IMG/VR virus record: IMGVR_UViG_3300032282_002939
Span: 1 to 64,000 of that record
Reading direction: 5' to 3' (one strand)
Length of the DNA: 64,000 nt
DNA from: a virus
Below are positions 910 to 40,307 of the stretch, in pieces. A program made the translations under genes and the position numbers. The stretch's first letter is position 1; each line of letters starts with the position of its first letter. The notes beneath the pieces were generated by a model, which saw only the letters and a program-made list of their open reading frames with translations, was not told where the DNA came from and made no database searches.

Positions 910-2019
910 ATGACTGTTTTCAACTACAAAAAACCAGAAAACATCAAAGCTTTTTTTGGCGATTCAAATGGTATCGTGAGATATGATCGTCAAAAATATC
1001 CTTTTCTAGAGAAATTAACAGAAAAACAATTAGGATTTTTCTGGCAACCACAAGAAGTAGATGTGTATCGCGACGCAAAAGATTTTAAAGATTTAACTGT
1101 TCATGAACAACACATTTTTACAGCAAATCTAAAGCGTCAAATTTTACTTGATTCTGTTCAAGGAAGAGCGCCAACTGCCGCATTTGGCCCCATTTGTTCT
1201 CTACCAGAATTAGAAACATGGATACAAACTTGGGCGTTTTCTGAAACAATTCACTCGCGTTCGTATACACATATCATTCGTAATGTATACCCAAACCCAT
1301 CAAAGGTGTTTGATGAGATGATGGATATTACTGAAATTGTTGATTGTGCTAATGATATCAGCAGGTATTATGATCAATTGATTGAAATGAATGGTGATAG
1401 AGAAAATCCCCATCAGCCATATGATTGGTATTACAATAAAAGTGATACACCCGAATACGAGCATAAAAAAACTCTTTGGCTTGCACTGATGTCAGTCAAC
1501 GTCCTTGAGGGCATCCGTTTTTACGTTAGCTTTGCTTGTTCCTGGGCATTTGCTGAAATGAAGAAAATGGAAGGTAATGCTAAGATTATCAAACTGATTT
1601 GTCGCGATGAAAATTTGCATCTGGCTGGAACACAACAGTTACTTAAGATTCTTCCTCAAGATGATCCCGATTTTATTCAAATCAAAAAGGAAACAGAACA
1701 AGAGTGTGTTGATCTGTTCAAGTCTGCTGTTGATCAGGAGAAACTATGGGCCAAATATCTGTTCAAAGACGGTTCAATGATTGGTCTTAATGAGAAACTT
1801 TTGAACGAATATATAGAGTGGATTGCAAACAAAAGAATGACAGCTATTGGTTTACCAAGTCTATATAAAGGGGGGTCAAATCCTCTGCCATGGACGCAAA
1901 AATGGATTAGTGGTAGTGATGTTCAAGTAGCGCCACAACAAACACAAATTTCTTCTTATATTTTGGGTGGAGTAAAGAAGGACGTAACCAATGAATCATT
2001 TAAAGGATTCTCTCTTTGA
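910..2019 (+). CDS. nrdB: Ribonucleoside-diphosphate reductase small subunit (NrdB, R2)
   Basis: The 369-residue R2 subunit houses the diiron-tyrosyl radical cofactor. Visible ligands include E112 and H115 with Y119 at the spacing of the radical tyrosine (ExxHxxxY), and later NVLEGIRF and CRDENLHL segments. A ribosome-binding AAAGGAT precedes the ATG. The C-terminal tail, which in R2 proteins docks on R1, ends in ESFKGFSL. The last 74 bases (1946-2019) are repeated at 3106-3179 with four synonymous differences, the footprint of a mobile endonuclease gene inserted after or into nrdB. The gene itself looks intact. Confidence 0.96.
   Translation: MTVFNYKKPENIKAFFGDSNGIVRYDRQKYPFLEKLTEKQLGFFWQPQEVDVYRDAKDFKDLTVHEQHIFTANLKRQILLDSVQGRAPTAAFGPICSLPELETWIQTWAFSETIHSRSYTHIIRNVYPNPSKVFDEMMDITEIVDCANDISRYYDQLIEMNGDRENPHQPYDWYYNKSDTPEYEHKKTLWLALMSVNVLEGIRFYVSFACSWAFAEMKKMEGNAKIIKLICRDENLHLAGTQQLLKILPQDDPDFIQIKKETEQECVDLFKSAVDQEKLWAKYLFKDGSMIGLNEKLLNEYIEWIANKRMTAIGLPSLYKGGSNPLPWTQKWISGSDVQVAPQQTQISSYILGGVKKDVTNESFKGFSL
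1946..2019 (+). repeat. nrdB 3'-end repeat, copy 1
   Basis: Direct repeat of 74 bases with 3106-3179 (70 of 74 identical by hand alignment; differences at 1989, 2013, 2016 and 2018). All four differences are synonymous. This copy supplies the end of the functional nrdB and is probably the one brought in by the mobile element. Confidence 0.9.
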
Positions 2020-3179
2020 TTTGGAGTATACCAGAAAATGAAAATATAGGGTATAAAGTTACGGTGTTACCAGACCCAGACCTTATACCCTATTGTTGTG
2101 AATATAATTGCGATTCATATATACCAAGGTTTGGAGGAGAAAAAATTGAAGGAGTTTATGTTTTAAAACACAATTTTCTTCAATTATATCAATTAGTAAA
2201 ACATTTTATAATATTTGATGGTACAGATTATATTGATATTACCCCATTTGAAGACAATAGACAATATAATTGGTTTATACCCATACAAATAAATTTATAT
2301 AATACATTTGTTCAGTCTCTCGAATGTATAAATTTACAAAAAAAACAGGAGACTGAACAAATGTATTATGTATATTGTTATATAGACCCAACAACAAATA
2401 TGCCATTTTATGTTGGAAAGGGAAAACAAAATAGAGCTTTTATTCATATCAAACATGCGAAAAAAGAACGTAAAAATAAAAATAAAACAAGATTTTTAAA
2501 TAAACTTCGACGGTTAATTGATGAAGGACACGAGCCTAAAATTATATTTCTTGCTCAAAATATTCAAGATGAAAATATTGCATATGAAATTGAAGAATCT
2601 TTTATAAAAAAACATGGAAGATTTGGCTATGAAGAAAATGGAATATTACTAAACACATGTGAGGGGTCTAGACCTCCAAATCACAAAGGTAAAACTTATG
2701 AACAAATTTATGGAGAAAAAGCGGCAGATCAAAAAGAAAAACGCCATAAATTACAATTAGAATCTGGTGGATGGTTCAAAGGAAAAAAACATACCGATGA
2801 ATCGAAAAGAAAAATATCTGATAAAACAAAGGGTAATAAAAATCCTAGATATGGGCTTACTATAAAAGGAACAGAAACCGCCGACAAAATAGGTAAGGCA
2901 AACAAAGGAAAAAAACATTATAGCCGAGCAAAACTTTTATATATAGACGGTCTTGATGTGTGTATATATACAAATGATTTGAAAGATTTTTGTAAAATTA
3001 ATAATCTATCTCATAGTACTTTTTTGTTTCAATTAGATAAAAAATGGCCAAGAAGTAAAAGAGGAAAAAACACTGGATTATTAATTAGAGAAGCGACAGA
3101 AACAGAAATTTCTTCTTATATTTTGGGTGGAGTAAAGAAGGACGTAACTAATGAATCATTTAAAGGATTCTCCCTCTAA
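2016..3179 (+). CDS. GIY-YIG homing endonuclease fused to an upstream domain and an nrdB tail copy
   Basis: A continuous frame of 387 codons starts at TTG 2016 in a TTGA overlap with the nrdB stop, with AAAGGA eight bases upstream. Residues 1-115 look like a real domain (segments such as DGTDYIDITPFEDN) of unknown function. The GIY-YIG nuclease domain begins at an internal ATG at 2361 (MYYVYCYIDP then FYVGKGK), followed by NUMOD3-like DNA-binding repeats (GWFKGKKHTDESKRKIS). The last 24 codons repeat the NrdB tail in frame, so the protein ends like NrdB. The nuclease may be made separately from ATG 2361, which has AGGAG at 2347-2351 and lies in a long hairpin. TTG use is inferred. Confidence 0.82.
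   Translation: MIWSIPENENIGYKVTVLPDPDLIPYCCEYNCDSYIPRFGGEKIEGVYVLKHNFLQLYQLVKHFIIFDGTDYIDITPFEDNRQYNWFIPIQINLYNTFVQSLECINLQKKQETEQMYYVYCYIDPTTNMPFYVGKGKQNRAFIHIKHAKKERKNKNKTRFLNKLRRLIDEGHEPKIIFLAQNIQDENIAYEIEESFIKKHGRFGYEENGILLNTCEGSRPPNHKGKTYEQIYGEKAADQKEKRHKLQLESGGWFKGKKHTDESKRKISDKTKGNKNPRYGLTIKGTETADKIGKANKGKKHYSRAKLLYIDGLDVCIYTNDLKDFCKINNLSHSTFLFQLDKKWPRSKRGKNTGLLIREATETEISSYILGGVKKDVTNESFKGFSL
2299..2369 (+). promoter_or_regulatory. Hairpin occluding the endonuclease start, with a late-promoter motif in its loop
   Basis: 2299-2319 and 2349-2369 form a perfect 21-bp inverted repeat with a 29-base loop. The right arm holds the ATG at 2361 and most of the AGGAG. The loop holds TATAAATT (2327-2334), one base off the T4 late -10 TATAAATA. 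Transcripts starting just downstream would lack the left arm and leave the start site free. This is the arrangement known for I-TevI in the T4 td intron; its function here is inferred. Confidence 0.7.
3106..3179 (+). repeat. nrdB 3'-end repeat, copy 2
   Basis: Second copy of the nrdB 3' end, in frame with the GIY-YIG reading frame and overlapping the start of the next gene (ATG 3151). The overlap suggests this is the original nrdB end, displaced by insertion of the endonuclease segment. Confidence 0.9.
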
Positions 3180-3390
3180 AATCATATTACTAGATGATAT
3201 CTATGATCTTAGAAAACAAAAAGAACAAGAACTGAGATACTACAACGAACAGTTAGAAAAACTTCAGGAAAAAATGTTCTTTGTAAGAAAAGAGATAGAG
3301 TTAACAAGTTTTATTATTGATATTATTGAAAACGAGAAAGTCACTGATATCAAAAAACTTATAGCAGAAAAAAGGAAAAGAGATGGATAA
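3151..3390 (+). CDS. Small coiled-coil protein, unknown function
   Basis: A 79-residue protein whose middle (YNEQLEKLQEKMFFVRKEIE) is a clear heptad-like, charged helix. Its ATG lies inside nrdB tail copy 2, preceded by AAGGACG. It overlaps the next gene by eight bases, so the two are probably translationally coupled. I recognise no family. Confidence 0.7.
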   Translation: MNHLKDSPSKIILLDDIYDLRKQKEQELRYYNEQLEKLQEKMFFVRKEIELTSFIIDIIENEKVTDIKKLIAEKRKRDG

Positions 3391-3559
3391 AGAATTAACT
3401 TGTGATGATTGTTATGAATCGTTTGAGATATTAACAGAATCAGATTCTCAAATTTGTTATTGTCCATTTTGTGGTTCTGAAATGGATATAAATGATTCAG
3501 AAAATGATGATAATGATGATGAAGAATGGGATGATCAGGACAATAGTAGATTCAGATAA
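3383..3559 (+). CDS. Small zinc-ribbon protein with an acidic tail
   Basis: A 58-residue protein with two cysteine pairs, TCDDC near residue 7 and CYCPFC near residue 25, the layout of a zinc ribbon, followed by a very acidic C-terminus (NDDNDDEEWDD). Such mini-ribbons are common in large phages and could bind nucleic acid or RNA polymerase, but nothing here fixes the role. The ATG overlaps the upstream stop region. Confidence 0.7.
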   Translation: MDKELTCDDCYESFEILTESDSQICYCPFCGSEMDINDSENDDNDDEEWDDQDNSRFR

Positions 3560-3597
3560 AATAAATAACGGAGAACAAATTGTGGAGTCTCCGTTAT
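3560..3597 (+). promoter_or_regulatory. Late-promoter-like motif and hairpin over the start of the GIY-YIG gene
   Basis: AATAAATA (3560-3567), a one-base variant of the T4 late -10, overlaps the left arm of a 10-bp perfect hairpin (3565-3574 with 3588-3597). The right arm contains the first two bases of the ATG at 3596. A transcript starting a few bases after the motif would lose the left arm. This is the same logic as at 2299-2369. Confidence 0.5.
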
Positions 3598-3994
3598 GTG
3601 GTTATATAATAATGAAGTGATTGACATCATTCCTGATAAAATCATAGGGTTTACCTATATAATAACAAATCTTACTAATAATAGAAAATATATCGGCAAG
3701 AAAAATTTTTACTTTTCAAAGACTAAACAGGTAAAAGGTAAGAAAAAAAGAATCAAAGTTGAATCAGATTGGCGTGATTATTTTGGTTCCAATGAAGAAT
3801 TAAAACAAGAAGTTGAAAAAATAGGGCAAGATAACTTCAAAAGAGAGATATTGAGGCTTTGTTCTTCAAAGGGCGAAATGAGTTATTTTGAGTTAAAAGA
3901 ACAGATGATTCAAGGAGTCTTAGAAAATAATGATTTCTATAATACCTGGGTTTCGGCAAAAATACACAGAAAACACTTGACCTTTCTAAAATAA
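3596..3994 (+). CDS. GIY-YIG family endonuclease, free-standing
   Basis: A 132-residue protein with a GIY-YIG core (GFTYIITN, then RKYIGKKNF) and the sequence VESDWRDYFGSNEELK, seen in short GIY-YIG-like proteins that recur in aquatic T4-like phages. It lacks the NUMOD repeats of the other endonucleases here, so it may be a resident phage nuclease rather than an active homing enzyme. The start is ATG 3596 at the edge of a hairpin; GGAG at 3584-3587 lies in the loop. Confidence 0.8.
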   Translation: MWLYNNEVIDIIPDKIIGFTYIITNLTNNRKYIGKKNFYFSKTKQVKGKKKRIKVESDWRDYFGSNEELKQEVEKIGQDNFKREILRLCSSKGEMSYFELKEQMIQGVLENNDFYNTWVSAKIHRKHLTFLK

Positions 3995-4005
3995 AGTAGT
4001 ATACT
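3977..4005 (+). promoter_or_regulatory. Sigma70-type promoter for the tRNA-Leu gene
   Basis: TTGACC (3977-3982), exactly 17 bp, then TATACT (4000-4005). The expected start, about 4012, falls just before the tRNA at 4014. It sits in the 3' end of the GIY-YIG gene. Confidence 0.75.
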
Positions 4006-4013
4006 TCTAATAT

Positions 4014-4090
4014 GCCCGTGTAGCCCAATTGGTAGAGGCGTTTGACTTAAGATCAAAGAGTTGGGAGTTCGAGTCTCTCCACGGGTACCA
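4014..4090 (+). tRNA. tRNA with UAA anticodon (Leu), short variable loop
   Basis: Cloverleaf: acceptor GCCCGTG with CACGGGT (G1-U72 wobble), anticodon stem TTTGA/TCAAA with loop CTTAAGA (anticodon TAA), T arm GGGAG/CTCTC, encoded CCA. The variable loop is only five bases (GAGTT), whereas bacterial leucine tRNAs normally carry a long variable arm. The charging identity is therefore uncertain. Confidence 0.88.
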
Positions 4091-4102
4091 AAGGGAAAAA
4101 AT

Positions 4103-4168
4103 ATGATAGAAATGTTAACCGTTTTAGGTCTAATGATCTTAGTATTAGCTAGTCTGAAAATTAAATAA
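4103..4168 (+). CDS. Possible 21-residue membrane peptide
   Basis: ATG after AAGGGA encodes a short peptide that is almost entirely hydrophobic (VLGLMILVLASL), ending in KIK. One predicted membrane helix. It lies directly behind the tRNA and could simply be chance; there is no family to support it. Confidence 0.35.
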   Translation: MIEMLTVLGLMILVLASLKIK

Positions 4169-4173
4169 AATGA

Positions 4174-4473
4174 CGTATTCTTATAAAAAACTGTAAACTT
4201 ATTTCTGAAAAAAGAAAAGGAATGTGTTCTGGGGTCGAAAATCCATTTTTTGGTAAAAAACACAAAAAAGAAAGTATGGAAAAACGAACTTTAACTAGAA
4301 AAATTAAAGGTATAAAACCATTATTTACTGGAAAAGGTTGTAAACATTACAATAATGGTGAAAAATCTATATTTTGTTTGCCTGGGTCAGAACCAATCGG
4401 GTTTGTACCAGGAAGAATAATGAAAAACATGAAAGGTGATAAAAATGCATCCTGCAAAAAATCGACCACGTAA
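4174..4473 (+). pseudogene. Remnant of a homing endonuclease (NUMOD-type DNA-binding tail)
   Basis: From 4174 the frame reads LIKNCKLISEKRKGM, then ENPFFGKKHKKESMEK and later EPIGFVPGR. These are the NUMOD3-like helix and the C-terminal G-F-V-P-G-R block of phage GIY-YIG and HNH endonucleases. No nuclease domain remains upstream and a stop lies at 4171. The end overlaps the next small gene. An expressed fragment from ATG 4222 cannot be excluded. Confidence 0.6.
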
Positions 4474-4537
4474 AGGTCGTCGTAAAATCGGTTCTTCTAA
4501 GCGTAAAGCACGCCGGTTAAACCGTCAGAAGCGATGA
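4445..4537 (+). CDS. Very basic 30-residue peptide
   Basis: ATG with AAAGGTG upstream; more than half of the residues are Arg or Lys (KGRRKIGSSKRKARRLNR). The stop overlaps the ATG of the dCMP deaminase gene (ATGA), suggesting translational coupling. Codons are richer in GC than the surroundings. It could bind RNA or DNA, or act only as a leader. No family recognised. Confidence 0.55.
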   Translation: MHPAKNRPRKGRRKIGSSKRKARRLNRQKR

Positions 4538-4965
4538 CAAACTGGGATGAAAGATTTCTTGATCTTTCCAAACATATTAGCACTTGGAGCAAAGACCCGT
4601 CAACTAAAGTCGGCGCCATTATTGTGGGCGATAGGCGGCGCGTTATTAGCATGGGTTATAATGGATTTCCTCGGGGAGTTGACGACTCACCAGATCGCTA
4701 CAATGATAGAGAAACAAAATATAAATTTGTCTGTCATGCAGAAAGAAATGCCCTTGACAATTGCAACGAGTCGGTAGTAAATGCAACCCTTTATGTATAT
4801 CCTTTACCTCCGTGTCCTGAATGTTGTAAATCAATTATTCAAAAAGGTATCTCAAAGGTTGTTCTTAAAAAATCTTCTGATACGCATTGGTACGAATCCT
4901 ATCGTACAATTTCTAAACCAATGCTTGATGAGGCTGGTATAATTTGTGAGGAATTAGAATGTTAA
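4534..4965 (+). CDS. cd: dCMP deaminase
   Basis: Converts dCMP to dUMP, feeding thymidylate synthesis. The 143-residue protein has the zinc-dependent deaminase motifs HAE (H68, E70) and PCPEC (C94, C97). The length fits a short member of the T4 Cd family. It starts in an ATGA overlap with the basic peptide gene and overlaps the dNMP kinase gene by seven bases, so the three are probably one translation-coupled unit. Confidence 0.93.
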   Translation: MTNWDERFLDLSKHISTWSKDPSTKVGAIIVGDRRRVISMGYNGFPRGVDDSPDRYNDRETKYKFVCHAERNALDNCNESVVNATLYVYPLPPCPECCKSIIQKGISKVVLKKSSDTHWYESYRTISKPMLDEAGIICEELEC

Positions 4966-5585
4966 TTGGTATGGTTGGTTTTGCTGGCTCTGGAAAGGGA
5001 ACAGTCTCTGATATTCTTGTTGGACAAGGATTTAAGAAAATGGCTTTTGCCGATCCTGTTAAAGATGCTGTTTCGGCAATCTTTGGTTGGAATAGATCTT
5101 TACTTGAGGGTGATACTAAAGAAAGTCGTGATTTTCGTGAAACATATGATCCATTTTGGGATGCAACACCACGTAAAATGTTACAGCTTATGGGAACAGA
5201 AGCTGGTAGAAATGTATTTCGTGATGATATTTGGATTCGTTCTATGGAAGCAAGAATGTCTCAATATAAAGATGTTGTGATTGCTGATGTTCGTTTTTCC
5301 AACGAAATTCAATTCATTAAATCTAAAGGTGGATTTATTGTTTGTGTAGCGCGTCAATTTCCTGAGTGGTTTGAAACTGCTAGAACACAAAATCTATTAA
5401 TGATGGACAATATTCCTTCAACACTTATGCAAACTAAATATCCAGAGGTCCATTATTCTGAATGGGCTTGGGTTGGTCATCATGTAGATTTTCTCATTGA
5501 TAACAACAGTAATCTTGATACATTGAAAATTAATGTAAAACATTGTCTTAAACAATTTTTAGGTCCTATTAAAGATGAAAGATAA
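4959..5585 (+). CDS. 1: Deoxynucleoside monophosphate kinase (T4 gp1-like)
   Basis: Phosphorylates dNMPs released from degraded host DNA or made de novo. A P-loop, GFAGSGKGT, is at residues 7-15; ADPVKDAVSAIFGW and TPRKMLQLMGTEAGR are hallmarks of the phage dNMP kinase family. 208 residues, close to T4 gp1 (241). It follows dCMP deaminase with a seven-base overlap, in keeping with a nucleotide precursor operon. Confidence 0.93.
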   Translation: MLIGMVGFAGSGKGTVSDILVGQGFKKMAFADPVKDAVSAIFGWNRSLLEGDTKESRDFRETYDPFWDATPRKMLQLMGTEAGRNVFRDDIWIRSMEARMSQYKDVVIADVRFSNEIQFIKSKGGFIVCVARQFPEWFETARTQNLLMMDNIPSTLMQTKYPEVHYSEWAWVGHHVDFLIDNNSNLDTLKINVKHCLKQFLGPIKDER

Positions 5586-5811
5586 TAAAGATTTCAGTGT
5601 ATCATCAGAACCAACTTGGTATATCTATGAACCAGGAGTTCTGTGTTGGGAAAATACACAATTTTCTATTCAATTAGAATTTGTTGGACCTCCTATATAT
5701 TATGTATTACACAAAAATAATAAAGTTGGCGTAGGTTTTACACTCAACACAGCCAAAGAAGTAGCAAAAAGTATAGCCAATGAAATGATAGAAATGGGTC
5801 TAGAAATTTAA
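5575..5811 (+). CDS. Hypothetical protein, 78 residues
   Basis: Starts within the last codons of the dNMP kinase gene. The sequence mixes aromatic beta-strand-like stretches (TWYIYEPGVLCW, PIYYVLH) with a C-terminal helix. No motif recognised. Confidence 0.65.
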   Translation: MKDNKDFSVSSEPTWYIYEPGVLCWENTQFSIQLEFVGPPIYYVLHKNNKVGVGFTLNTAKEVAKSIANEMIEMGLEI

Positions 5812-5852
5812 ATAAATAACCTATCTTTAACAACATTAGGGTGGCCCATGAA

Positions 5853-6224
5853 ATGTATTGCGGCAAGCATATTATTGTTGATTTTTGGGGAGATATAGAT
5901 TCTCGAATATTGACAGACGAAAATTTAATTAAGGAAGCTTTTATTACTGCTGCTGAAACAGCAGGAGCAACTGTTCTGGGATCAAATTGGCATCATTTTG
6001 GTGAAGGTTTTGGCGTCACAGGTGTTGTTATGTTATCAGAAAGTCATATGAGTATTCACACTTGGCCTGAACACGGTTTAGCAACAATTGATGTTTATAT
6101 GTGCGGAACCTGTGAACCAATGGACGCTGTAACAGTTCTGTCTGGGTATTTTAAACCAAATAGAATAACAACTAATGAAATATACAGAGGCGTAATGAGC
6201 GAAGCTTTTCATTTTAAGGACTGA
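5853..6224 (+). CDS. speD: S-adenosylmethionine decarboxylase proenzyme (SpeD)
   Basis: Makes decarboxylated AdoMet for spermidine synthesis. The processing site is in LSESHMSIHTWPE, where Ser64 would become the pyruvoyl group; the Cys in DVYMCGT fits the catalytic cysteine. 123 residues matches the short prokaryotic class. I chose ATG 5853 over GTG 5841 because AGGGTGG lies eight bases before the ATG, while the GTG has no spaced ribosome site. AATAAATA at 5811-5818 might be a late promoter. A second, divergent SpeD relative is at 10249. Confidence 0.93.
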   Translation: MYCGKHIIVDFWGDIDSRILTDENLIKEAFITAAETAGATVLGSNWHHFGEGFGVTGVVMLSESHMSIHTWPEHGLATIDVYMCGTCEPMDAVTVLSGYFKPNRITTNEIYRGVMSEAFHFKD

Positions 6225-16885: not shown

Positions 16886-17629
16886 ATGCAAGAAAATAGA
16901 AAGCTATCTAGAAAAGAACGCAGAGCACAACGCAATCAGCAGAATGGCAATCAAGCTTCGGAGAAATTAAATTTCACACTAAAAAATATAGAACCTTTAA
17001 CTGAAAATCAAAAATTGTCGGTCCAAGCATACAATCAAGGAAAAAACCTTATGTTGCATGGAATAGCAGGGACCGGCAAATCATTTCTATCTATATATCT
17101 TGCATTGAATGAAATATTAAATAAGGAAAGCGATTATAAAAAACTTATCTTAGTAAGAAGCGTTGTACCCACAAGAGATATGGGGTTTCTCCCTGGTTCT
17201 CAAAAAGAAAAAGCAAAGGTTTATGAGGCTCCGTACTATGCTATATGTACGGAGCTTTTTGGTAGAGGTGATGCATATGAATATCTAAAATCAAAGAATA
17301 TTGTTGATTTTATAAGCACATCCTTTATTAGAGGTGTTACCCTCAATGATTGCATTATTATCGTAGATGAAATTGCAAACTGTACATTACACGAATTAGA
17401 TTCAGTTATCACTCGTGTGGGCAGAAATTGTAAGATTATTTTCTGTGGAGATTTCAGACAATCTGATTTTATAAGAGAAAACGATAAGAATGGATTACAT
17501 GATTTTATGAAAATCATACAGAGAATGAAATCCTTTGTCTTCATAGATTTTAATGAAAATGACATTGTTAGAAGCAATCTAGTGAAAGACTATATCATAC
17601 AGAAGGATAAATTGAAAATTGCAGCGTAA
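16886..17629 (+). CDS. phoH: PhoH-like ATPase
   Basis: 247 residues. Walker A HGIAGTGKS (residues 58-66), SVVPTRDMGFLPG, Walker B IIIVDEIANC and the sensor GDFRQSDF are the PhoH set. Common in aquatic phages; the role in infection is unresolved. A basic N-terminal tail (SRKERRAQRNQ) precedes the domain. It overlaps the nuclease gene by 11 bases. Confidence 0.92.
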   Translation: MQENRKLSRKERRAQRNQQNGNQASEKLNFTLKNIEPLTENQKLSVQAYNQGKNLMLHGIAGTGKSFLSIYLALNEILNKESDYKKLILVRSVVPTRDMGFLPGSQKEKAKVYEAPYYAICTELFGRGDAYEYLKSKNIVDFISTSFIRGVTLNDCIIIVDEIANCTLHELDSVITRVGRNCKIIFCGDFRQSDFIRENDKNGLHDFMKIIQRMKSFVFIDFNENDIVRSNLVKDYIIQKDKLKIAA

Positions 17630-18275
17630 ACACTTTAATCATAATCTTGTAACACCAATAAAATTGGTTCGTGAAAACATTGACGGCAAACGTCATTATG
17701 TTCTTCCTGATGGCGACAAACTAAGATCAGTGACCACAGTCTTATCCGAGAAATCGGATAAGACTTTTTTGTACGAATGGCGTAAAAGAGTTGGTGAAGA
17801 AGAAGCAACAAAGATATCTGTACAAGCAGGGAGAAGAGGAACTGCTGTCCATACTATAGCTGAGAGATATGTTTTAAACGAACAAGACTATTTCAAAGAT
17901 TCTATGCCAGCAAACAAATTTACATTTGAGATGATTAGACCTACATTAAATCAATATGTAGATAATATCTATGGCATTGAGCTTGGTTTGTTTTCAAAAG
18001 CACTAAAAGCTGCTGGCACAGCCGATCTTATAGCAGAGTTTGATTCTATACCTACTGTCATTGATTTCAAGACATCAAGAAAAACAAAGAAGAAAGAATG
18101 GATTGAAAATTATTTTCTTCAATCTACAACATATTCTATGATGTTTGAAAGATTATATGATATAAAAATTCCTCAGATAGCCATAATAATAGCTGTAGAT
18201 GATGACCAACCACAGCTATTTGTCGAGAACAGAAGTAAATATGTGAATAGGGTTCTTGAGGTGTTTACTCAATAA
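17619..18275 (+). CDS. PD-(D/E)XK superfamily nuclease
   Basis: 218 residues. AGRRGTAVHTIAERY is the RecB/Cas4-like motif, and GTADLIAEF followed by TVIDFKTSRK gives the D...D-x-K metal site with QSTTYSMMF after it. Likely a processing exonuclease in DNA replication or recombination. The start is TTG 17619 inside phoH; no ATG precedes the conserved part. It ends just before the strand-switch terminator. Confidence 0.83.
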   Translation: MQRKHFNHNLVTPIKLVRENIDGKRHYVLPDGDKLRSVTTVLSEKSDKTFLYEWRKRVGEEEATKISVQAGRRGTAVHTIAERYVLNEQDYFKDSMPANKFTFEMIRPTLNQYVDNIYGIELGLFSKALKAAGTADLIAEFDSIPTVIDFKTSRKTKKKEWIENYFLQSTTYSMMFERLYDIKIPQIAIIIAVDDDQPQLFVENRSKYVNRVLEVFTQ

Positions 18276-18300
18276 AAAAGGGAGCCAAGGCTCCCTTTTA
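18276..18300. terminator. Bidirectional terminator between convergent gene blocks
   Basis: GGGAGCC (18280-18286), two-base loop, GGCTCCC (18289-18295), with AAAAA before and TTTT after, so it can act on both strands. It divides the + strand early block from the - strand genes. Confidence 0.9.
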
Positions 18301-18302: not shown

Positions 18303-18773
18303 TTAGAAACGGAAGTTTACGCCTAATGTAAAGCTATTATCTCCTGCTTTACGAAAGGCGTTTGCTCTAAACGTATCAGTATATCGATAACGAGTATCAA
18401 GCTCAACATTATCACTTACAGCAACCCTTAGACCTCCTCCTACGTTATAAGCCATTTCAGATTGTGTTCCTACGACAGAAATACCAGTACCAGCAAGAAC
18501 GTAAGGTGTAAATGGTGTTCCTGTTGGATATTGAACAATCGCATTAACCATGACATTATTCATTGAACGGTCAAATTTGCGATAATCATAGGTAAGCTCA
18601 CCACGAACAAATGGTGAAATCTGATAGCCCGTATTGAAACCTAAATCAACACGTTGTTTATTATTAATCGTTGTTCCAACATTTCCTCCAACGTAAAAAC
18701 CTGTATCGTCAGCAGCCTTTACAGCAGTAAATGTTGATAGAGTTAGAATAGCAGCAAGAATAATTTTTTTCAT
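18303..18773 (-). CDS. Outer-membrane beta-barrel protein with signal peptide
   Basis: 156 residues from ATG 18773, preceded by AGGAG. A textbook signal peptide (MKKIILAAILTLSTFTAVKA, cleavage near residue 20) is followed by alternating strands (GFYVGGNVGTT, FVRGELTYDYRKF, VELDTRYRYTD) and a C-terminal GVNFRF, the terminal-Phe signal for outer-membrane assembly. It resembles OmpA-barrel/Ail-like proteins. A phage would use it to alter the infected cell surface, for instance to block superinfection. A host origin is likely. Confidence 0.85.
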   Translation of the reverse strand: MKKIILAAILTLSTFTAVKAADDTGFYVGGNVGTTINNKQRVDLGFNTGYQISPFVRGELTYDYRKFDRSMNNVMVNAIVQYPTGTPFTPYVLAGTGISVVGTQSEMAYNVGGGLRVAVSDNVELDTRYRYTDTFRANAFRKAGDNSFTLGVNFRF

Positions 18774-18792: not shown

Positions 18793-18869
18793 TGGTACCG
18801 GTAGTCGGATTTGAACCAACACTGAGCAGGTTTTGAATCTGCTGCCTCTGCCAATTGGGCTATACCGGC
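18793..18869 (-). tRNA. tRNA with CAA anticodon (Leu), short variable loop
   Basis: Acceptor GCCGGTA/TACCGGT (G1-U72 wobble), anticodon loop TTCAAAA (CAA) on a GCAGA/CCTGC stem with an A-C mismatch at 31-39, variable loop TCAGT of five bases, encoded CCA. Like the UAA tRNA at 4014 it lacks the long arm expected for leucine. Confidence 0.82.
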
Positions 18870-18872
18870 ATA

Positions 18873-18948
18873 TGGAAGCCCCTTCTGGGATCGAACCAGA
18901 AACCCACAGATTCAAAGTCTGTTGCTCTGCCAATTGAGCTAAGGAGCT
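18873..18948 (-). tRNA. tRNA-Gln (UUG)
   Basis: Acceptor AGCTCCT/AGGGGCT, anticodon stem ACAGA/TCTGT with loop CTTTGAA (TTG), T loop TTCGATC, discriminator U and encoded CCA. The A1-U72 pair and U73 are unusual for glutamine. Confidence 0.88.
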
Positions 18949-18950
18949 AG

Positions 18951-19036
18951 TGGCGGAAGTTGATAGCATCGAACTATTGACCTTTCGGCCACCCTGGTTT
19001 TCAAGACCAGATGAGGAGCCAACCTCGGCAACTTCC
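18951..19036 (-). tRNA. tRNA-Ser (UGA)
   Basis: Acceptor GGAAGTT/AACTTCC, anticodon stem CTGGT/ACCAG with loop CTTGAAA (TGA), long class II variable arm with a GGCCGAAAGGTC core, encoded GCCA end. Confidence 0.93.
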
Positions 19037-19042
19037 AATTAA

Positions 19043-19654
19043 TTAAGTTCTGTAAGACCAGACTACTTCTGGAATTTCAGACATTTCTTTATGTTGTTTA
19101 GTAGTAAACCAACAAGTGGATGGGAATACCTGAACTTTTTCTTTAGAAAGAAGTCCATTTACTGCACGAATGATGCCTGGATATGGTTGAGCATAATCAT
19201 GACCACCAAAAAGACCACCAATTTTTACTTTTGGAAACCAAGCAGTGATATCTTTCTTGATGGATTCATAATCATGCGAAGCATCAATAAAAACGAAATC
19301 CAAACTTTCATCTTGATAAAGACTCGCTGTCTCAGCACTATCTCCTTGAATGGCAGTATAATGCCCTTCAACTGGCTTCATATTATTCACAAAAACATCA
19401 TACAGTCGTCCAGCTTGATTGTCTCTATCAAGCATTTGCCCAGGCTCAATCACAGAACCTGTAAAATTATCAATACAATCTAGTTTGATTTTCTTGCCAC
19501 TATTTATAATTTCGACAGCAAGAAATGCAGAACTTTGTCCTTTCCATGTTCCAATTTCTACAAAATGTGCTTCCTGTGGAGCATGTTGTACTGCATATGC
19601 AAACATGTCTGGATAATTGAACCAACCTTCTACTTTTTGATAAAAATGTTCCAT
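19043..19654 (-). CDS. Class I SAM-dependent methyltransferase
   Basis: 203 residues. HFVEIGTWKGQSSAFL is the SAM motif; KLDCIDNFTGS, GDSAETASL and DFVFIDASHDYESIKKDI complete a Methyltransf_24-like domain found in sugar or small-molecule methyltransferases. It is transcribed with the next oxygenase gene between tRNA blocks; the substrate is unknown. Confidence 0.82.
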   Translation of the reverse strand: MEHFYQKVEGWFNYPDMFAYAVQHAPQEAHFVEIGTWKGQSSAFLAVEIINSGKKIKLDCIDNFTGSVIEPGQMLDRDNQAGRLYDVFVNNMKPVEGHYTAIQGDSAETASLYQDESLDFVFIDASHDYESIKKDITAWFPKVKIGGLFGGHDYAQPYPGIIRAVNGLLSKEKVQVFPSTCWFTTKQHKEMSEIPEVVWSYRT

Positions 19655-19664
19655 ATTAATTTCC

Positions 19665-20345
19665 TTAATCAGTGTCCATTACAATATCACCAGAAACAGC
19701 AATTCTATATTCATCTGATGTATAGAATGGATTTACAGAATGCCCTAGACCTTTTGGAAATAGACAAATAATTCCTTCATAAGAGTGGTCTACTGGGACT
19801 GGATGACTTCTAACTTGACCAAGAATATCAGTGTAATAGAATGTGAACATAGAAGCGCATTTATATGTAGCATTAGGAAATACTGCAATTTCATCTTCTA
19901 CATTATATGGAATTCTTGTCCAGATAACAAACGAATAAACCCCGCCATGAATATGGTGAGGATGGAATTCGTGTTTCTTTTGAAAATTTGCCCAAACATC
20001 TTTAAATTTAAAATTTCTTGGATGTGAAGCAACATTTACAACTTGACCAACATGGTGTGGTTGAGAACGCTGATCATGAACGGCTATCAAACTATTGATA
20101 TAATCCAAAAGAACCGGAGCCAATTCTACTGTAAAATCATATTCCCTCTGAATATTAGCAGTAATATGTTTTTCAACAGCGCCTTCGAAATTTTTAGCAA
20201 CAGCTCCATCTGTAACTTCATGAACCTTATTCATGATATCATCAGGAACTCTACTAAAAAGTACTCCACTATTTGGAAACGTATAGAATACAGCTTGATC
20301 GCTTGTTAGATTTGAAATTTGATCTGCCATAGTTTTATCTTTCAT
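19665..20345 (-). CDS. Putative 2-oxoglutarate/Fe(II) oxygenase
   Basis: About 226 residues. EFHPHHIHGGVYSFVIW gives the N-terminal metal site and GLGHSVNPFYTSDEYRIAVSGD the distal His and the Arg that binds 2-oxoglutarate, as in double-stranded beta-helix hydroxylases common in aquatic T4-like phages. The start is unclear: ATG 20345 or 20330 (MADQISN), neither with a strong ribosome site. The target is unknown. Confidence 0.75.
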   Translation of the reverse strand: MKDKTMADQISNLTSDQAVFYTFPNSGVLFSRVPDDIMNKVHEVTDGAVAKNFEGAVEKHITANIQREYDFTVELAPVLLDYINSLIAVHDQRSQPHHVGQVVNVASHPRNFKFKDVWANFQKKHEFHPHHIHGGVYSFVIWTRIPYNVEDEIAVFPNATYKCASMFTFYYTDILGQVRSHPVPVDHSYEGIICLFPKGLGHSVNPFYTSDEYRIAVSGDIVMDTD

Positions 20346-20363
20346 CAATTAACATTAAAAATT

Positions 20364-20445
20364 TGGAGCGGACAGGGAGAGTCGAACTCCGCCCTTTCGG
20401 ATCAGCTTGGAAGGCTGTTGGTGGCCCCTTCACCTGTCTGTCCGC
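20364..20445 (-). tRNA. tRNA-Gly (UCC) with an enlarged variable region
   Basis: Acceptor GCGGACA/TGTCCGC with UCCA end and anticodon arm CAGCCTTCCAAGCTG (TCC), as in bacterial Gly tRNAs. The D arm (GGTG...CACC) is atypical, the variable region carries a CCGAAAGG mini-hairpin, and position 49-65 is a C-C mismatch. Confidence 0.75.
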
Positions 20446-20616
20446 AGAATATTGAGTATTGATTTGCTACGCTGGCTCAATTACTCAAAGCCTCGATAGA
20501 TCTATGCTTACATAGACTCAAAAAGCTGAACCTCACGAATTGGCTCGAATGAAGTTTGAAATCACGACGACCGGGTAATTCCCAATCGTATTCAAATCTT
20601 ACACTGGTATTTATAT
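20446..20616 (-). other. Gene-free spacer in the tRNA array with hairpins
   Basis: No reading frame or clear tRNA. It contains a perfect 6-bp hairpin (20501-20506 with 20511-20516, loop CTTA) and other imperfect stems. It could be a processed stable RNA like the unexplained RNAs of the T4 tRNA cluster, or a decayed tRNA. Confidence 0.35.
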
Positions 20617-20694
20617 TGGTGCCCCAAACGAGACTCGAACTCGCATCTCACAGGTTGAAAGCCTGTTGCTCTATTCCAATTAAGCTATTGGGGC
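20617..20694 (-). tRNA. tRNA-Glu (UUC)
   Basis: Acceptor GCCCCAA/TTGGGGC, anticodon stem ACAGG/CCTGT with loop CTTTCAA (TTC), T arm GCGAG/CTCGT region, encoded CCA. Discriminator A, unlike the G73 of the second Glu tRNA at 21313. Confidence 0.88.
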
Positions 20695-20864
20695 TTAATT
20701 GCCCGACTCACTACGTATTGGGTTAGGACTTGTCGAGTGTAAGGAATCTCGACCAACACCAGCATCAAAGACCAAAGCCCTGTAAACCATGGGTGGGTTT
20801 ATCGGTTTTACCAACAGTCATTTTGAAGTCGGGTACCCCATTTGCTCCGACTAGTCTTTGAAAA
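20695..20864 (-). other. Gene-free spacer in the tRNA array with hairpins
   Basis: No gene found. Perfect GTCGAG/CTCGAC stem (20732-20737 with 20748-20753) and GTCGG/CCGAC stem (20828-20832 with 20847-20851). A structured RNA is possible but unproven. Confidence 0.35.
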
Positions 20865-20939
20865 TGGTGCCCACGGAGAGATTTGAACTCCCAACCTACT
20901 GATTACAAATCAGTTGCACTACCGTTGTGCTACATGGGC
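20865..20939 (-). tRNA. tRNA-Thr (UGU)
   Basis: Acceptor GCCCATG/CGTGGGC, anticodon stem ACTGA/TCAGT with loop TTTGTAA (TGT), T loop TTCAAAT, encoded CCA. Confidence 0.93.
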
Positions 20940-20942
20940 AAA

Positions 20943-21018
<76 letters not shown>

Positions 21019-21023
21019 ATAAT

Positions 21024-21101
21024 TGGTAGCGAGGGTAGGATTCGAACCTACGACCTTCTGGGTATGAACCAGACGAGCTAACCAGACTGATCTACCCGTC
21101 C
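21024..21101 (-). tRNA. tRNA-Met (CAU), initiator-like, with a mispaired acceptor stem
   Basis: Anticodon stem TCTGG/CCAGA with loop TTCATAC (CAT); the GGTTAGCTCGTC and GAAGGTCGT segments resemble bacterial initiator tRNA. The acceptor GGACGGG against CCTCGCT has mismatches at 3-70 and 4-69 and wobbles at 1-72 and 5-68. It may be decaying or need editing. Confidence 0.65.
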
Positions 21102-21111
21102 GTATATGAAT

Positions 21112-21185
21112 ATCATCGTATAGGATTTGCACCTATCTCTCATCTCATTCCGCAGATGTGTCCTAACTTATAGACGAACGATGAT
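21112..21185 (-). other. tRNA-like element, anticodon unclear
   Basis: A 7-bp acceptor-like stem (ATCATCG/CGATGAT), a D-like arm (GTC/GAC) and a perfect T arm (ATAGG/CCTAT with TGCAAAT) are present. The anticodon arm is best drawn as CATCT/AGATG around an 8-base loop with no normal U33. No CCA is encoded. Confidence 0.45.
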
Positions 21186-21189
21186 AACT

Positions 21190-21307
21190 GTATTCTTTAC
21201 ACCTTATCGGTTTAGCCCTTTAGCTAATGAAGTCAGCAATCCGATATTCGCAAGCATTCCCTTCTGTTAGTCTTGCTAGGTCTCTCCTGCGTATCTAGAA
21301 AGCAGGA
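21190..21307 (-). other. Structured gene-free spacer in the tRNA array
   Basis: Three adjacent hairpins: ATCGG/CCGAT (21206-21210 with 21241-21245) enclosing TTAGC/GCTAA; GCAAG/CTTGC (21250-21254 with 21272-21276); TCCTGC/GCAGGA (21285-21290 with 21302-21307). No gene seen. Confidence 0.4.
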
Positions 21308-21312
21308 TAATT

Positions 21313-21390
21313 TGGCGCTCCGCGTCGGACTCGAACCGACATTGCACTCATTGAAAGCGAGGGTTCCTATTCCAATTAGAAGAACGGAGC
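21313..21390 (-). tRNA. tRNA-Glu (UUC), second copy
   Basis: Acceptor GCTCCGT/GCGGAGC, loop CTTTCAA (TTC) on a weak CCTCG/TGAGT stem (C-U mismatch at 27-43, G-U at 31-39), T loop TTCGAGT, GCCA end with the G73 usual for glutamate. Confidence 0.78.
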
Positions 21391-22590: not shown

Positions 22591-22983
22591 TTATTTCTTT
22601 TTACGACCCATATTATATTTGGTTTCTAGAATCCACTCAATTTTTTCTTTATGGTTAAGAATTTTAATTTGATTCATTGATGCCAGAGGAGAACTAATTT
22701 CTTCCGAATTGACAACTGTCAATAAACCCCATTCTTTTAACAATTCAACAATTTTGTTTCGCCTTGCTTTATCTTCTTCGGTAAAATTAGAAGGTTTACC
22801 ATCAATAGCAAACATTTCTTTAAAATGAACAATATAATATTTCCCTTGTTTATGGAAAATATGGCATGATTGGAATAATCTTTTCTCTTTTCTTGAAGCA
22901 ACACCAATTCTAGTTAATGTTTCTTTAATTTTTAAGAAATCTTCCTCCTCTGCAATCTTCACTTCGATTAAATTTTCTATCAT
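22591..22983 (-). CDS. regA: RegA translational repressor
   Basis: 130 residues (T4 RegA 122). IEVKIAEEEDFLKIKETLTRIGVAS and QSCHIFHKQGKYYIVHFKEMF are characteristic; RegA binds early mRNAs near their start codons and represses translation. It overlaps gp62 by four bases, keeping the T4 order 45-44-62-regA. Confidence 0.92.
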   Translation of the reverse strand: MIENLIEVKIAEEEDFLKIKETLTRIGVASRKEKRLFQSCHIFHKQGKYYIVHFKEMFAIDGKPSNFTEEDKARRNKIVELLKEWGLLTVVNSEEISSPLASMNQIKILNHKEKIEWILETKYNMGRKKK

Positions 22984-23465
22984 TTAACCCCACCTTTTTC
23001 TTGTTTTTTTCTAATAAACTCAATCTGTTCCTTTGTAAGAATTTTTAGAACTTCTTTGCTTCTCACAATATTGTATTTATAATATTCTGAAATTAGTTCT
23101 ATTAATTTTTCTTCTTCTTTACGCCGGTCCAGTTCTTCCTGGGGTGTCTTTTTACTGAAGCGTTTATGTTTACGAACAGAATAAAAAAGATAATCGTATT
23201 GCATCTGGAACGGAAGATGATACATCATATTAACAATATTAGCATCAAATACCGTTTCTGGGTAATTAGATAGGATATTATTTGTTCTCCAAGGATTATA
23301 TTTCTCATCTTGATCGGAAAGGATCAAACGCTCCTTTCCGGTATTGATGCTGTTTTCGTACCTCCAATCATATCTTTTATCTGTTGTTTGTTTCTTTTCT
23401 ACAGAAGGCTCTTCTCGATCTTCAAGAAGAACATTAACAAATTTCTTTTTTACAGGAACTCGCAT
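22980..23465 (-). CDS. 62: Clamp loader small subunit (T4 gp62-like)
   Basis: 161 residues. Partner of gp44 in loading the gp45 clamp. The region PFQMQYDYLFYSVRKHKRFSK and its position between gp44 and regA support the call, although gp62 sequences diverge strongly. Its start overlaps the end of gp44 by 16 bases, as in T4-like operons that couple the two subunits. Confidence 0.88.
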   Translation of the reverse strand: MRVPVKKKFVNVLLEDREEPSVEKKQTTDKRYDWRYENSINTGKERLILSDQDEKYNPWRTNNILSNYPETVFDANIVNMMYHLPFQMQYDYLFYSVRKHKRFSKKTPQEELDRRKEEEKLIELISEYYKYNIVRSKEVLKILTKEQIEFIRKKQEKGGVK

Positions 23466-24388
23466 TCTTGCATTACCTTCAGGAGAAAAGCTACAAAATT
23501 AATCTCTTGATTGGCCACAAACGCATTTTGATATTGATATGTAGCAACCTCAAGAATCAAAACGGGAACGCTTGATTTTGCAAAATAGTCATATGCAGTT
23601 TCGTAGAACTCTGTATATAGATCAGAAACATCTGAATCCATATTGTTCTTGACCCATTTACGAACTTCTGTTAGATTTTTATCCTTCATGAATTGAATCA
23701 ATTCCTTAAGATTAGTTTCTCGCATATTAGCAAGAATACCAGAATCGATCTTACCGGTGGCTGAATATCTCTGAAGCTCATTGATAACACGGCGCCAATC
23801 TGGAAAATATTTATTGATTAGTTCCGCTACTACAGGCTTTTCATATTGGACGTTTTCTTTGTCGAGAATATAGAGAATTCTCTTCATAAATTGGGAAGCT
23901 AACTTCGCCATGTCCTTTTTTGAAATATTAAAATCAATAACAGAACACCTAGAATGTAGGGGCGAGATTAGCTTATTCTTATAATTACAAGTCAGAATAA
24001 ACCCACAATTCCGAGAAAACTCCTCCATAAAATTGCGAAGAGCAGGTTGTGTTGAGTTTGGATTAAGGTAATCCGCCTCGTCAAGAATTACATATTTACG
24101 ACCACCAGAAAGGGAAACGCTCGAGGCGAAAGTTTGAATTTCATTCCTAAGCGTATCAATGTTTCTATCTTTTGAACCGTTGATGATGATATAATCACAA
24201 CCAATTTGTTCTAACATAGCACGAGCAACTGTGGTTTTACCCACACCTGCAGAGCCAGTCAAAAGGAGATTTGGAATATTTTTCTGATCGACAAATTGTT
24301 GAAACACAACTTTCAAATTTGTAGGAAGAATAGTATCTTCAATAGTTTTTGGCCTATAAACTTCAACCCAAAGAAAATCTTCAATCAT
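23450..24388 (-). CDS. 44: Clamp loader large subunit (T4 gp44-like AAA+ ATPase)
   Basis: 312 residues (T4 gp44 319). Walker A GSAGVGKT (45-52), Walker B DEAD (103-106), and the SRC arginine-finger segment HSRCSVIDF. It opens and loads the sliding clamp with gp62. Confidence 0.96.
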   Translation of the reverse strand: MIEDFLWVEVYRPKTIEDTILPTNLKVVFQQFVDQKNIPNLLLTGSAGVGKTTVARAMLEQIGCDYIIINGSKDRNIDTLRNEIQTFASSVSLSGGRKYVILDEADYLNPNSTQPALRNFMEEFSRNCGFILTCNYKNKLISPLHSRCSVIDFNISKKDMAKLASQFMKRILYILDKENVQYEKPVVAELINKYFPDWRRVINELQRYSATGKIDSGILANMRETNLKELIQFMKDKNLTEVRKWVKNNMDSDVSDLYTEFYETAYDYFAKSSVPVLILEVATYQYQNAFVANQEINFVAFLLKVMQECEFL

Positions 24389-24434
24389 TTTATATCTCCA
24401 TAACGAAAAGAAATGGGGGAATTACCCCCACATA

Positions 24435-25088
24435 TTAAAATTCAGAGTTGCTTTCTACTGCAATCCAGTATTCAGCTTCCTTTCCAACAAAATGTGAAAT
24501 TCCCCTAGAACAAATAGATACCTGATAATCACCAGGAAGAATTTTAATATTGTCAGATTTAAAAATCGCTTTGAAAATTTTGTCAGTTTCTCCAATATCG
24601 ATTGAAAAATAATCTTCTGTAGTATTTTTAGTATCTGCTGCTTGTAGAGCAATAACATTTTCAGCTCCAAGAATAACCAGTTCTGGCAAACCAAGAACTC
24701 CAAGAGCTTTTTCAACATCCTTTAGATGATCGTTTGATAGAAAAAACGAGGCATCAATTGATGGGAGAACTAGATCTTTTTCTGGAGACTTTTTAATTGT
24801 GCTTTCGTCAGCATAAGCATAATTTGTTGTCCTTTTTCCATCTGTAATCTTAACAGATTTTTCCCCAAAAATTAGCTCTGGATCGGAAAAAAGACTTAGG
24901 ATTGAAATGAACCGATCTAAATTATAGATAGCAAAACGATTAGGAAATGCAGTGCTAACTACTGCCTTTGCCATGATTGTTTTTGCTGGAGAAATAGTTT
25001 TAATCACATTTCCTTCTTCAATCAAGATAGAAGGATTAATTTTCGCGAAATTCTTTAGAACATTGATAGTGTTTGTGTCGATTTTCAT
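24435..25088 (-). CDS. 45: Sliding clamp (T4 gp45-like)
   Basis: 217 residues (T4 gp45 228). TNTINVLKNFAKINPSILI and ISPAKTIMAKAVV start a PCNA-like fold. Beyond DNA polymerase processivity, T4 gp45 also activates late transcription with gp55 and gp33, which is relevant to the TATAAATA promoters here. Confidence 0.93.
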   Translation of the reverse strand: MKIDTNTINVLKNFAKINPSILIEEGNVIKTISPAKTIMAKAVVSTAFPNRFAIYNLDRFISILSLFSDPELIFGEKSVKITDGKRTTNYAYADESTIKKSPEKDLVLPSIDASFFLSNDHLKDVEKALGVLGLPELVILGAENVIALQAADTKNTTEDYFSIDIGETDKIFKAIFKSDNIKILPGDYQVSICSRGISHFVGKEAEYWIAVESNSEF

Positions 25089-32386: not shown

Positions 32387-33094
32387 TTAGCTCTCCTTCA
32401 AAGAACAGTTATCAAAATGATAACGTCTCATAGCAAATGCACCTCCATTTTTACCACAGTGTGGGCATGCTGTCAATTCTTGTTTATAACCTTTTTCTCT
32501 TACTGGAGAGAAAGCTTCGTTAAACGCTTTGACTTGTCTGATAAGTCCTTCAGGTGAGATTGACTGTCTAGATCTTTTACCATGTTCTTTAAGTTCATCG
32601 GCATTCATCTTTGAAAATCTTGCTTTTTGAGCTTTACTTTTTAATTGTCTGGAATGTTCACTTTCTTTGCTGCCTTTCTTATTTTTATTGGCAGATGATG
32701 TCAGTGCTTTCTTTTGTTCCTTTGTCATCTTTGATCTCTGAAGCTTTAAGCTCTCTGACATTTTAAGAAGTGTTTCTTCAGAATACTCACGATCTACACA
32801 ACCTTCACCGCCAGCAGTCATGTTATATCCATAACCGTAATCATTTGATCTATAATGTTTTATCCATTTTTGTTCAGCTTCATATATTTTACCACTTTCA
32901 CATTCTTCTAACATTTCGATTTTAAAGTTCTCAGAACCGTATTTCTTCATAGCTTGATATAACAGTCGTCTTTCTTTATTGAGACTTTTGCTACATCTAA
33001 CATGATCTTCAAACCTAGATTCGATTGAATGTTTTGTTATTCCAACGTACTTTTTATTATTAACTTCATTTTTGATTAGATATACGTATGACAT
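32387..33094 (-). CDS. GIY-YIG homing endonuclease with C-terminal zinc finger
   Basis: 235 residues. SYVYLIKNEVNNKKYVGIT is the GIY-YIG core, with R and E residues following; a basic NUMOD-like region (EYSEETLLKMSESLK) precedes a CPHCGKNGG...RYHFDNC zinc finger. AAGGAG precedes the ATG. GATAAATA upstream (33122-33129) could be a weak late promoter. It lies between the deformylase and the ATT-start gene and is probably a mobile insertion. Confidence 0.87.
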   Translation of the reverse strand: MSYVYLIKNEVNNKKYVGITKHSIESRFEDHVRCSKSLNKERRLLYQAMKKYGSENFKIEMLEECESGKIYEAEQKWIKHYRSNDYGYGYNMTAGGEGCVDREYSEETLLKMSESLKLQRSKMTKEQKKALTSSANKNKKGSKESEHSRQLKSKAQKARFSKMNADELKEHGKRSRQSISPEGLIRQVKAFNEAFSPVREKGYKQELTACPHCGKNGGAFAMRRYHFDNCSLKES

Positions 33095-39682: not shown

Positions 39683-40294
39683 TCATTGCACAAGTTCAAT
39701 AGTATTTAGTTCTTTTTGTTTTCTAAACTCTTCCCATCTTTTTTTAGATGCAGCAGAAACAGCCAATTTTCTTTTGTTATTGGGATCCGACCATTGTTCT
39801 TTCATACGTTTAGAATTTTCTTGTTTCCATTCAGCTGTATGTGGAGCCTTTTTAATTCCTGTAAGAGCAGCTTTATGTTCTTCGGTTAGAGCTTTACCTT
39901 TTTTAGCAGCAGAAATCGCTGATCCTCGGCTTGGTGGTGCTGGAACGCTTTTACCTTTTTTAGAGAATGATATTTTTTGACCAATAGTTTTTACGGATTC
40001 TGGGTAAGCATGCCAAGCTGTTGTATTTGATTTATTTAAGTTATAATAACGTAATTTTATTTCTTCTGGCTTTATCATGTCTAAATAACGCTGTTCTTCT
40101 TCGTACATATTAATTCTAGATAAATTTGTTTTTAATATACGTCTTTTAAAATCTTCTGACCTAATTCTCCACGCTTGTTTCATCCAAGAAGAACTACATA
40201 TATATCCATCTTCAACAGTTCCCCAATGACAACCGATATAATATCTTTTATGTTTACGATCAAACCAAAGATAAACAAATCCGTATTTTTCCAT
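39683..40294 (-). CDS. GIY-YIG homing endonuclease beside gp23
   Basis: 203 residues from ATG 40294 (GGAGG). KYGFVYLWFDRKHKRYYIGCHWG is the GIY-YIG core; LTEEHKAALTGIKKAPHTAEWK is the NUMOD-like part. Clearly paralogous to the gene at 55090 (same WGT-DGYICSS region). Located between the major capsid gene terminator and the next late unit. Confidence 0.87.
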   Translation of the reverse strand: MEKYGFVYLWFDRKHKRYYIGCHWGTVEDGYICSSSWMKQAWRIRSEDFKRRILKTNLSRINMYEEEQRYLDMIKPEEIKLRYYNLNKSNTTAWHAYPESVKTIGQKISFSKKGKSVPAPPSRGSAISAAKKGKALTEEHKAALTGIKKAPHTAEWKQENSKRMKEQWSDPNNKRKLAVSAASKKRWEEFRKQKELNTIELVQ

Positions 40295-40307
40295 ATTAAC
40301 CTCCAAA

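Follow-up and report, generated by a model that had tools for sequence, protein, structure and literature searches.

We analyzed a stretch of 64,000 nucleotides of viral DNA (the window), which comes from a record of 73,898 bases (G000). An intact open reading frame on the minus strand (18303..18773; ATG at 18773, stop codon at 18303-18305) encodes a candidate outer-membrane barrel of 156 amino acids. A tRNA-Leu(caa) gene (18793..18869) lies 19 nt upstream of its start codon. Farther upstream, and also on the minus strand, are tRNA-Gln(ttg) (18873..18948), tRNA-Ser(tga) (18951..19036), a Methyltransf_24 protein (19043..19654; Pfam 3.5e-19), a 2OG-Fe(II) oxygenase (19665..20348; Pfam 5.8e-8, phrog_81 3.9e-19) and seven further tRNA genes (Gly, Glu, Thr, Asn, Met, Arg and Glu; 20364..21390), all tRNA genes being called with ARAGORN. 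Homologues of regA, gp62, gp44 and gp45 follow at 22591..25088 on the same strand (Pfam and PHROGs), which places the barrel gene at the far end of the gp45-gp44-gp62-regA strand with the tRNA genes in between.

On the other side, a hairpin at 18276..18299, a likely bidirectional terminator, marks the boundary with a convergent exonuclease gene (17619-18275); PhoH is also encoded there (Pfam and PHROGs). The hairpin folds with -14.7 and -16.5 kcal/mol on the two strands (z = -3.60 and -4.39), and none of 200 shuffles was as stable on either strand. A pattern scan for terminators did not list this hairpin, which was revealed by folding. The placement beside a terminator and tRNA genes, as described in the initial annotation, is borne out.

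The record carries a T4-type Gp23 capsid gene (E = 3.2e-153), and together with the gp45, gp44, gp62 and regA homologues this identifies the phage as T4-like by homology. In its capsid protein, the phage shares 69% identity with Stenotrophomonas phage DLP_6 and about 64% with Pelagibacter phage Mosig and with Sinorhizobium phages. Capsid kin among phages of these three genera do not point to a single host.

Elsewhere in the window, the gene for the terminase large subunit (49767-52510, minus strand) looks split by a split intein. The ORF at 51596-52510 (Terminase_6N) has a tail that begins with C after FEQEYN, and the ORF at 49767-50948 has an intein-like start that runs to VNHN, followed by CEFLG and Terminase_6C. 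The Intein_splicing match in the latter ORF (E = 2.1e-7, 31.3 bits) is below the cut-off of 35.8. A GIY-YIG ORF (50906-51559) sits between the two terminase ORFs. It is one of four GIY-YIG-like homing endonuclease ORFs recognized by eye among the late-region genes (the others are at 32387-33094, 39683-40306 and 55090-55833), and the profile scan covered this one of the four. A GIY-YIG/NUMOD3 ORF on the plus strand (2016-3179) and the ribonucleotide reductase small-chain gene before it (910-2019) share their last 22 residues, SSYILGGVKKDVTNESFKGFSL, as though the insertion of an endonuclease had brought or copied the end of the reductase gene.

Sequence and predicted fold of the barrel protein

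The protein begins with MKKIILAAILTLSTFTAVKA followed by ADD, a signal-peptide pattern as judged by eye. The putative signal peptide would comprise residues 1-20 (18714..18773, minus strand), where the structural model has a helix at residues 2-14 and is of low confidence. The C-terminus is TLGVNFRF (18306..18329, minus strand), with a terminal Phe; we take endings of this type to be outer-membrane beta-signals, which BAM would recognize. The motif fits 27 of the 28 rows of an alignment of the window protein and its relatives (A2). Both of these general marks of outer-membrane proteins are therefore present in the window protein.

Profile searches agree with this reading. The window protein matches Pfam OMP_b-brl (PF13505) with E = 2.4e-15 and 57.6 bits against a cut-off of 28.7, over residues 7-156 and profile positions 4-175 of 175, so that its membership is far beyond chance. 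It also matches OmpA_membrane (E = 1.4e-4, 22.1 bits, cut-off 21). The Pfam scan found no peptidoglycan-binding OmpA C-terminal domain, and the protein ends at the barrel. Neither the Ail/Lom family nor PF24653 (Phage_OMP) appeared among its Pfam matches at E up to 1, and a PHROGs scan gave no real match (best E = 0.087). Three NCBIfam matches were rejected, each being far under its own cut-off; a match to Rickettsia Adr covered residues 1-43 only, with 31 bits against a cut-off of 210.

The initial annotation had proposed structure prediction as a check. To build A2, 33 loci were reduced to 28 distinct C-terminal sequences, the 67-residue fragment L039 was dropped, and the remaining 27 were aligned with the window protein. 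With these 28 sequences, AlphaFold2 predicted an OmpA-type barrel of eight strands (mean pLDDT 84.7, pTM 0.76) at residues 25-35, 42-51, 56-66, 71-81, 88-101, 104-118, 123-134 and 145-155. A single-sequence model built without the alignment was useless (pLDDT 31.3) and was discarded. The profile matches and the predicted fold support an outer-membrane barrel as the gene product, and the earlier description of a signal peptide and a terminal-Phe barrel holds.

The best match among solved structures was Legionella porin III (9nh2; Z = 20.6, 1.6 Å over 136 residues). Tied behind it were the OmpA barrel (1qjp; Z = 19.2, 1.4 Å over 122), the OprF N-terminal barrel (4rlc; Z = 19.2, 1.6 Å over 124) and NspA (1p4t; Z = 19.0, 2.0 Å over 133), which likewise have eight strands. 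Ail has a similar fold as well, with a Z of 12-13. In profile comparisons, A2 matched OmpA with E values of 1e-7 to 4e-5, NspA with 2.4e-6 and OprF with 1.1e-5. These comparisons place the modeled barrel with the eight-stranded OmpA-type fold represented by 1qjp. Identity to OmpA, NspA and OprF is 19-26%, and the window protein differs from OmpA in having no C-terminal OmpA-like domain and shorter outer loops.

By OmpA topology, the outer loops would be residues 36-41, 67-70, 102-103 and 135-144. At 6, 4, 2 and 10 residues between model strands, they are very short. Mean pairwise identity over the 28 rows was 0.10-0.20 in the loops, 0.22-0.33 in the periplasmic turns and 0.32-0.64 in the strands, although some of the length change tabulated in strand 3 probably belongs to loop 2. 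The most variable parts are those that would face outside. High loop variability is usual in cellular outer-membrane proteins too. Among charged residues, D126 and R128 are invariant across the rows and E59 and R130 nearly so; judging from strand alternation, they may point inward as a plug.

Relatives, selection and origin

A tblastn search of named phages found barrel matches in 5 of 50,697 records. Two are of Agrobacterium phage Atu_ph07, and one each is of Ochrobactrum phage vB_OspM_OC and Sinorhizobium phage Phosso; the fifth, a short Salmonella phage record (H5, 2245 bp), matched weakly and in part (E = 2e-4). The hosts of Atu_ph07, vB_OspM_OC and Phosso presumably belong to one bacterial order, Hyphomicrobiales. 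The proteins of these three phages (AUZ95410.1, QIG65986.1 and XYS97228.1) are of the same family as the window protein, with 33-36% identity. Like it, all three score above the OMP_b-brl cut-off, and they have a hydrophobic start and a terminal Phe or Trp. Their gene neighbours are unlike those in the window, and a tRNA gene adjoins the barrel gene in Phosso only. Against PF24653, the Phosso relative scored 17 bits, below the cut-off of 27. In the Phosso genome (PV764938.1), the Gp23 match at 246935-247888 is divided between two adjoining pieces, whose open frames are equally long; two further, weaker Gp23 pieces lie elsewhere.

In IMG/VR, alignment recovered 33 loci, among them Atu_ph07 (L028) and one close relative whose barrel is 88% identical to that of the window (L002/L007). 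Together, these relatives make up 33 viral loci plus three phages with names, one of which figures in both sets. Gp23 was found in 11 of 33 records searched, that of the window included; many of the others are short fragments that cannot tell. Carriers of the barrel include phages of different hosts whose genomes measure 490, 469 and 228 kb. Homologues of gp44, gp62 and regA precede it also in L007, L015 and L036, as does gp45 in L015, where the barrels of L015 and L036 are 35% and 30% identical to that of the window. Across the 30 loci compared, every gene family other than the barrel is confined to 8 loci or fewer. Some loci share neighbours of another kind (among L012, L017, L018, L025, L026, L029, L031 and L032) and may, from their gene content, represent another phage group.

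Such barrels had been described as rarely noted in T4-like phages. In one respect this stands: our literature search, with most subscription journals outside its coverage, found no functional study of the family. However, phage outer-membrane barrels are already annotated, and the window gene is a further one. Foldseek against viral proteins found barrels in Vibrio phage nt-1, Aeromonas phage phiAS5 and Synechococcus phage S-CBWM1 (E = 2.6e-4, 9.5e-4 and 1.4e-5), all of which we take to be T4-like phages; they are 12-17% identical to the window protein in those alignments. PF24653 is a family of cyanophage barrels, phage-encoded like that of the window. QIG65986.1 of vB_OspM_OC carries the annotation 'outer membrane protein'; the words 'outer membrane' are absent from the main text of the paper on that phage (PMC7139368). 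In Sinorhizobium phage AP-J-162, two genes are named outer membrane protein, and one of them, gp282, is reported to be 35% identical to an Atu_ph07 protein (PMC11242549); gp282 perhaps belongs to the same family as the window barrel.

The barrel gene is under purifying selection. Between the window and L007, dN was 0.071 and dS 0.815 over 156 codons, a ratio of about 0.09. The corresponding values for its neighbours were 0.058 and 0.935 (methyltransferase), 0.048 and 0.958 (PhoH), 0.200 and 2.05 (exonuclease) and 0.111 and 1.39 (regA).

The initial annotation considered the barrel an acquired gene. An ultimately bacterial origin is likely, since such barrels are bacterial, but the acquisition does not appear recent. 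In a tree of 53 rows, one branch parts 30 phage barrels from 23 sampled bacterial ones, with a support of 76/86 and presence in 74% of bootstrap trees; this amounts to moderate support, in a tree with several long branches and a small bacterial sample. Left out of the tree were L003, which is the same phage as L028, and the bacterial L041, L053, L064, L068 and L069, which are fragments or repeats. One strict pattern found 3 weak relatives on bacterial genome contigs, and in one phylum at least 19 out of 398 genomes passed 1e-10 when no more than 8 candidates were scored in each. With so few candidates scored and so strict a pattern, close bacterial kin may have been missed. Small bacterial barrels (among them L051, L052 and L062), presumably alphaproteobacterial surface barrels of the Omp25/RopB kind, start with AADLPxxxAP...FTWTGFYxG, and the AADLPSK..P part is found in many phage rows. 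They group apart from the phage rows, and a Pro-rich linker is missing from the window protein. We rejected a recent bacterial capture, on moderate tree support and a small bacterial sample; the sequences fit better with an old phage-resident lineage of bacterial origin.

Linkage to tRNA genes and expression timing

The fresh point of this analysis is the linkage of the barrel gene to tRNA genes. We compared 30 records: the window, 27 distinct viral loci, L004 and L005, leaving out L003 because L028 already represents that phage (Atu_ph07). In 16 of them, a tRNA gene on the same strand is found no more than 120 nt from the barrel gene. Drawing one random other ORF per locus, 4.1 (sd 1.8) would be expected, or 6.2 (sd 2.0) when only ORFs within 3.5 kb are considered, and none of 20,000 random draws reached 16. 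The records include close kin (L009/L010, L037/L038, L021/L033 and window/L007), which makes the independent cases fewer; L007 apart, the tRNA-linked barrels are only 30-41% identical to that of the window. Among the remaining records, 10 have a tRNA gene that does not adjoin the barrel and 4 have no tRNA gene in the stretch. No report of barrel-tRNA linkage was found in the literature searched, which took in few subscription journals. In L007, the nearest relative, 19 tRNA genes lie at 2184-5981, compared to ten in the matching window stretch (18793-21390); the array thus changes quickly while the barrel beside it is conserved.

In T4, the 45-44-62-regA group consists of early/middle genes. 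Because the barrel gene shares its strand with this group, it is probably early or middle in the window phage, by analogy of location. Its position on the replication and tRNA strand, together with purifying selection, makes it plausible that the barrel is expressed during infection.

Promoter motifs give a mixed picture of this timing. The late-type motif TATAAATA occurs at 12 sites in the window compared to 8.7 expected. This count is near chance, and the informative part is the placing of the sites before ORFs. In the region of 39-61 kb, six of the 12 precede an ORF by 19-36 nt, and the share of sites with an ORF start within 45 nt (6/12) compares with 5.4% of random positions. Such placing is as expected of T4-type late promoters. 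The six ORFs include the capsid gene and also at least one GIY-YIG ORF (50906-51559), so they are not structural genes only. No such motif is found near the start of the window barrel. One copy at 20608-20615 could drive the distal tRNA and barrel stretch late, and none is present at the matching place in L007. Among relatives, 3 of 28 barrels (L011, L035 and L036) carry the motif 25-53 nt ahead of the start codon, compared to 9 of 358 other ORFs from these loci (Fisher P = 0.048); two of the three, L011 and L035, are close kin. The barrels of these three loci may therefore be late genes, as far as upstream motifs indicate. Sigma-70-like promoters upstream of the barrel were striking by eye in several loci, yet they were not enriched (6 of 28 barrels vs 55 of 355 other ORFs; Fisher P = 0.42), and we draw no support from them.

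Possible roles during infection

We consider superinfection exclusion the most likely purpose of the barrel, ahead of upkeep of the envelope, with a probability of roughly one in three. The signal peptide would export a minimal OmpA-type barrel, made early or middle in the window phage together with the tRNA and replication genes, and the host BAM machinery would insert it into the host outer membrane. There it would alter the surface of the infected cell so that further phages adsorb or inject poorly. The short external loops argue mildly, as modeled, against a receptor decoy, which makes membrane crowding or receptor contact the likelier means. The barrel would thus act through a changed outer-membrane composition or contact with a host receptor protein, rather than through long decoy loops.

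Precedents count for the exclusion reading, as does the variability of the parts predicted to face outside, a trait that is usual in cellular outer-membrane proteins too. The late-type motifs upstream of three relatives and the null result for sigma-70-like promoters count against it. Lom of lambda is phage-encoded and resides in the host outer membrane. Lom and Llp of T5 resemble the window barrel in that they are phage-encoded and act or lie in the host outer membrane. Llp brings about superinfection exclusion at the outer membrane by jamming FhuA, and is a periplasmic-facing lipoprotein, unlike the window barrel (PMC9586334). For the T4-like phage Melnitz, an exclusion role has been proposed for an S-layer-type gene (PMC9004378). 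Our literature search found no instance of Omp25 or RopB serving as a phage receptor.

A possible but less probable reading is that the phage provides a stable barrel to fill the outer membrane once synthesis of host outer-membrane proteins stops, so that the cell holds together up to lysis. The conserved charged residues of this minimal OmpA-type barrel suit a structural role, and OmpA-type proteins are known to stabilize envelopes. The main means by which OmpA does so, a peptidoglycan-binding domain, is missing from the window protein. Moreover, the loops vary far more than the strands, which would be needless in a pure filler, though it is usual for cellular outer-membrane proteins.

It is unlikely that the barrel instead acts late, either by disturbing the outer membrane and so promoting lysis or vesicles, or by stopping new virions from sticking to debris. 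The signal peptide and barrel would permit such a role, and the late-type motif lies close upstream in the 3 relatives described above. That motif is absent near the window gene, and recognized lysis genes were 0 of 10 among the neighbours scanned with Pfam and PHROGs. A lysis-regulating role has been proposed for the phage-encoded CsgG of Melnitz (PMC9004378).

Less probable still, the barrel gene could be a passenger that moves with tRNA genes through a variable cargo site to little benefit. This would account for the 16 of 30 barrels that adjoin a same-strand tRNA gene and for the widely differing gene neighbours, but it fits poorly with the dN/dS of about 0.09 against L007 and with the presence of the barrel in the 490, 469 and 228 kb genomes of phages of different hosts and in many viral contigs. 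A component of the tail or head, in favour of which we found nothing, is very improbable given the signal peptide, the outer-membrane fold and the location with replication genes, away from the capsid gene.

Returning to exclusion, a broader form of the proposal is that a virus-specific lineage of minimal barrels travels with tRNA arrays in T4-like and other large phages as a general factor for surface remodeling or exclusion, the arrays serving as a cargo site for surface-control genes. We put this forward tentatively and hold it to be doubtful in its full scope.

T4 Imm and Sp act at the inner membrane or wall. If the barrels do change the surface of infected cells, they would represent superinfection control at the outer membrane for a class of phages. 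The tRNA linkage offers an easy way to spot such genes in phages that lack annotation. Members of this small family are predicted to fold well, and as some occur in cultured Agrobacterium, Ochrobactrum and Sinorhizobium phages, the idea is directly testable.
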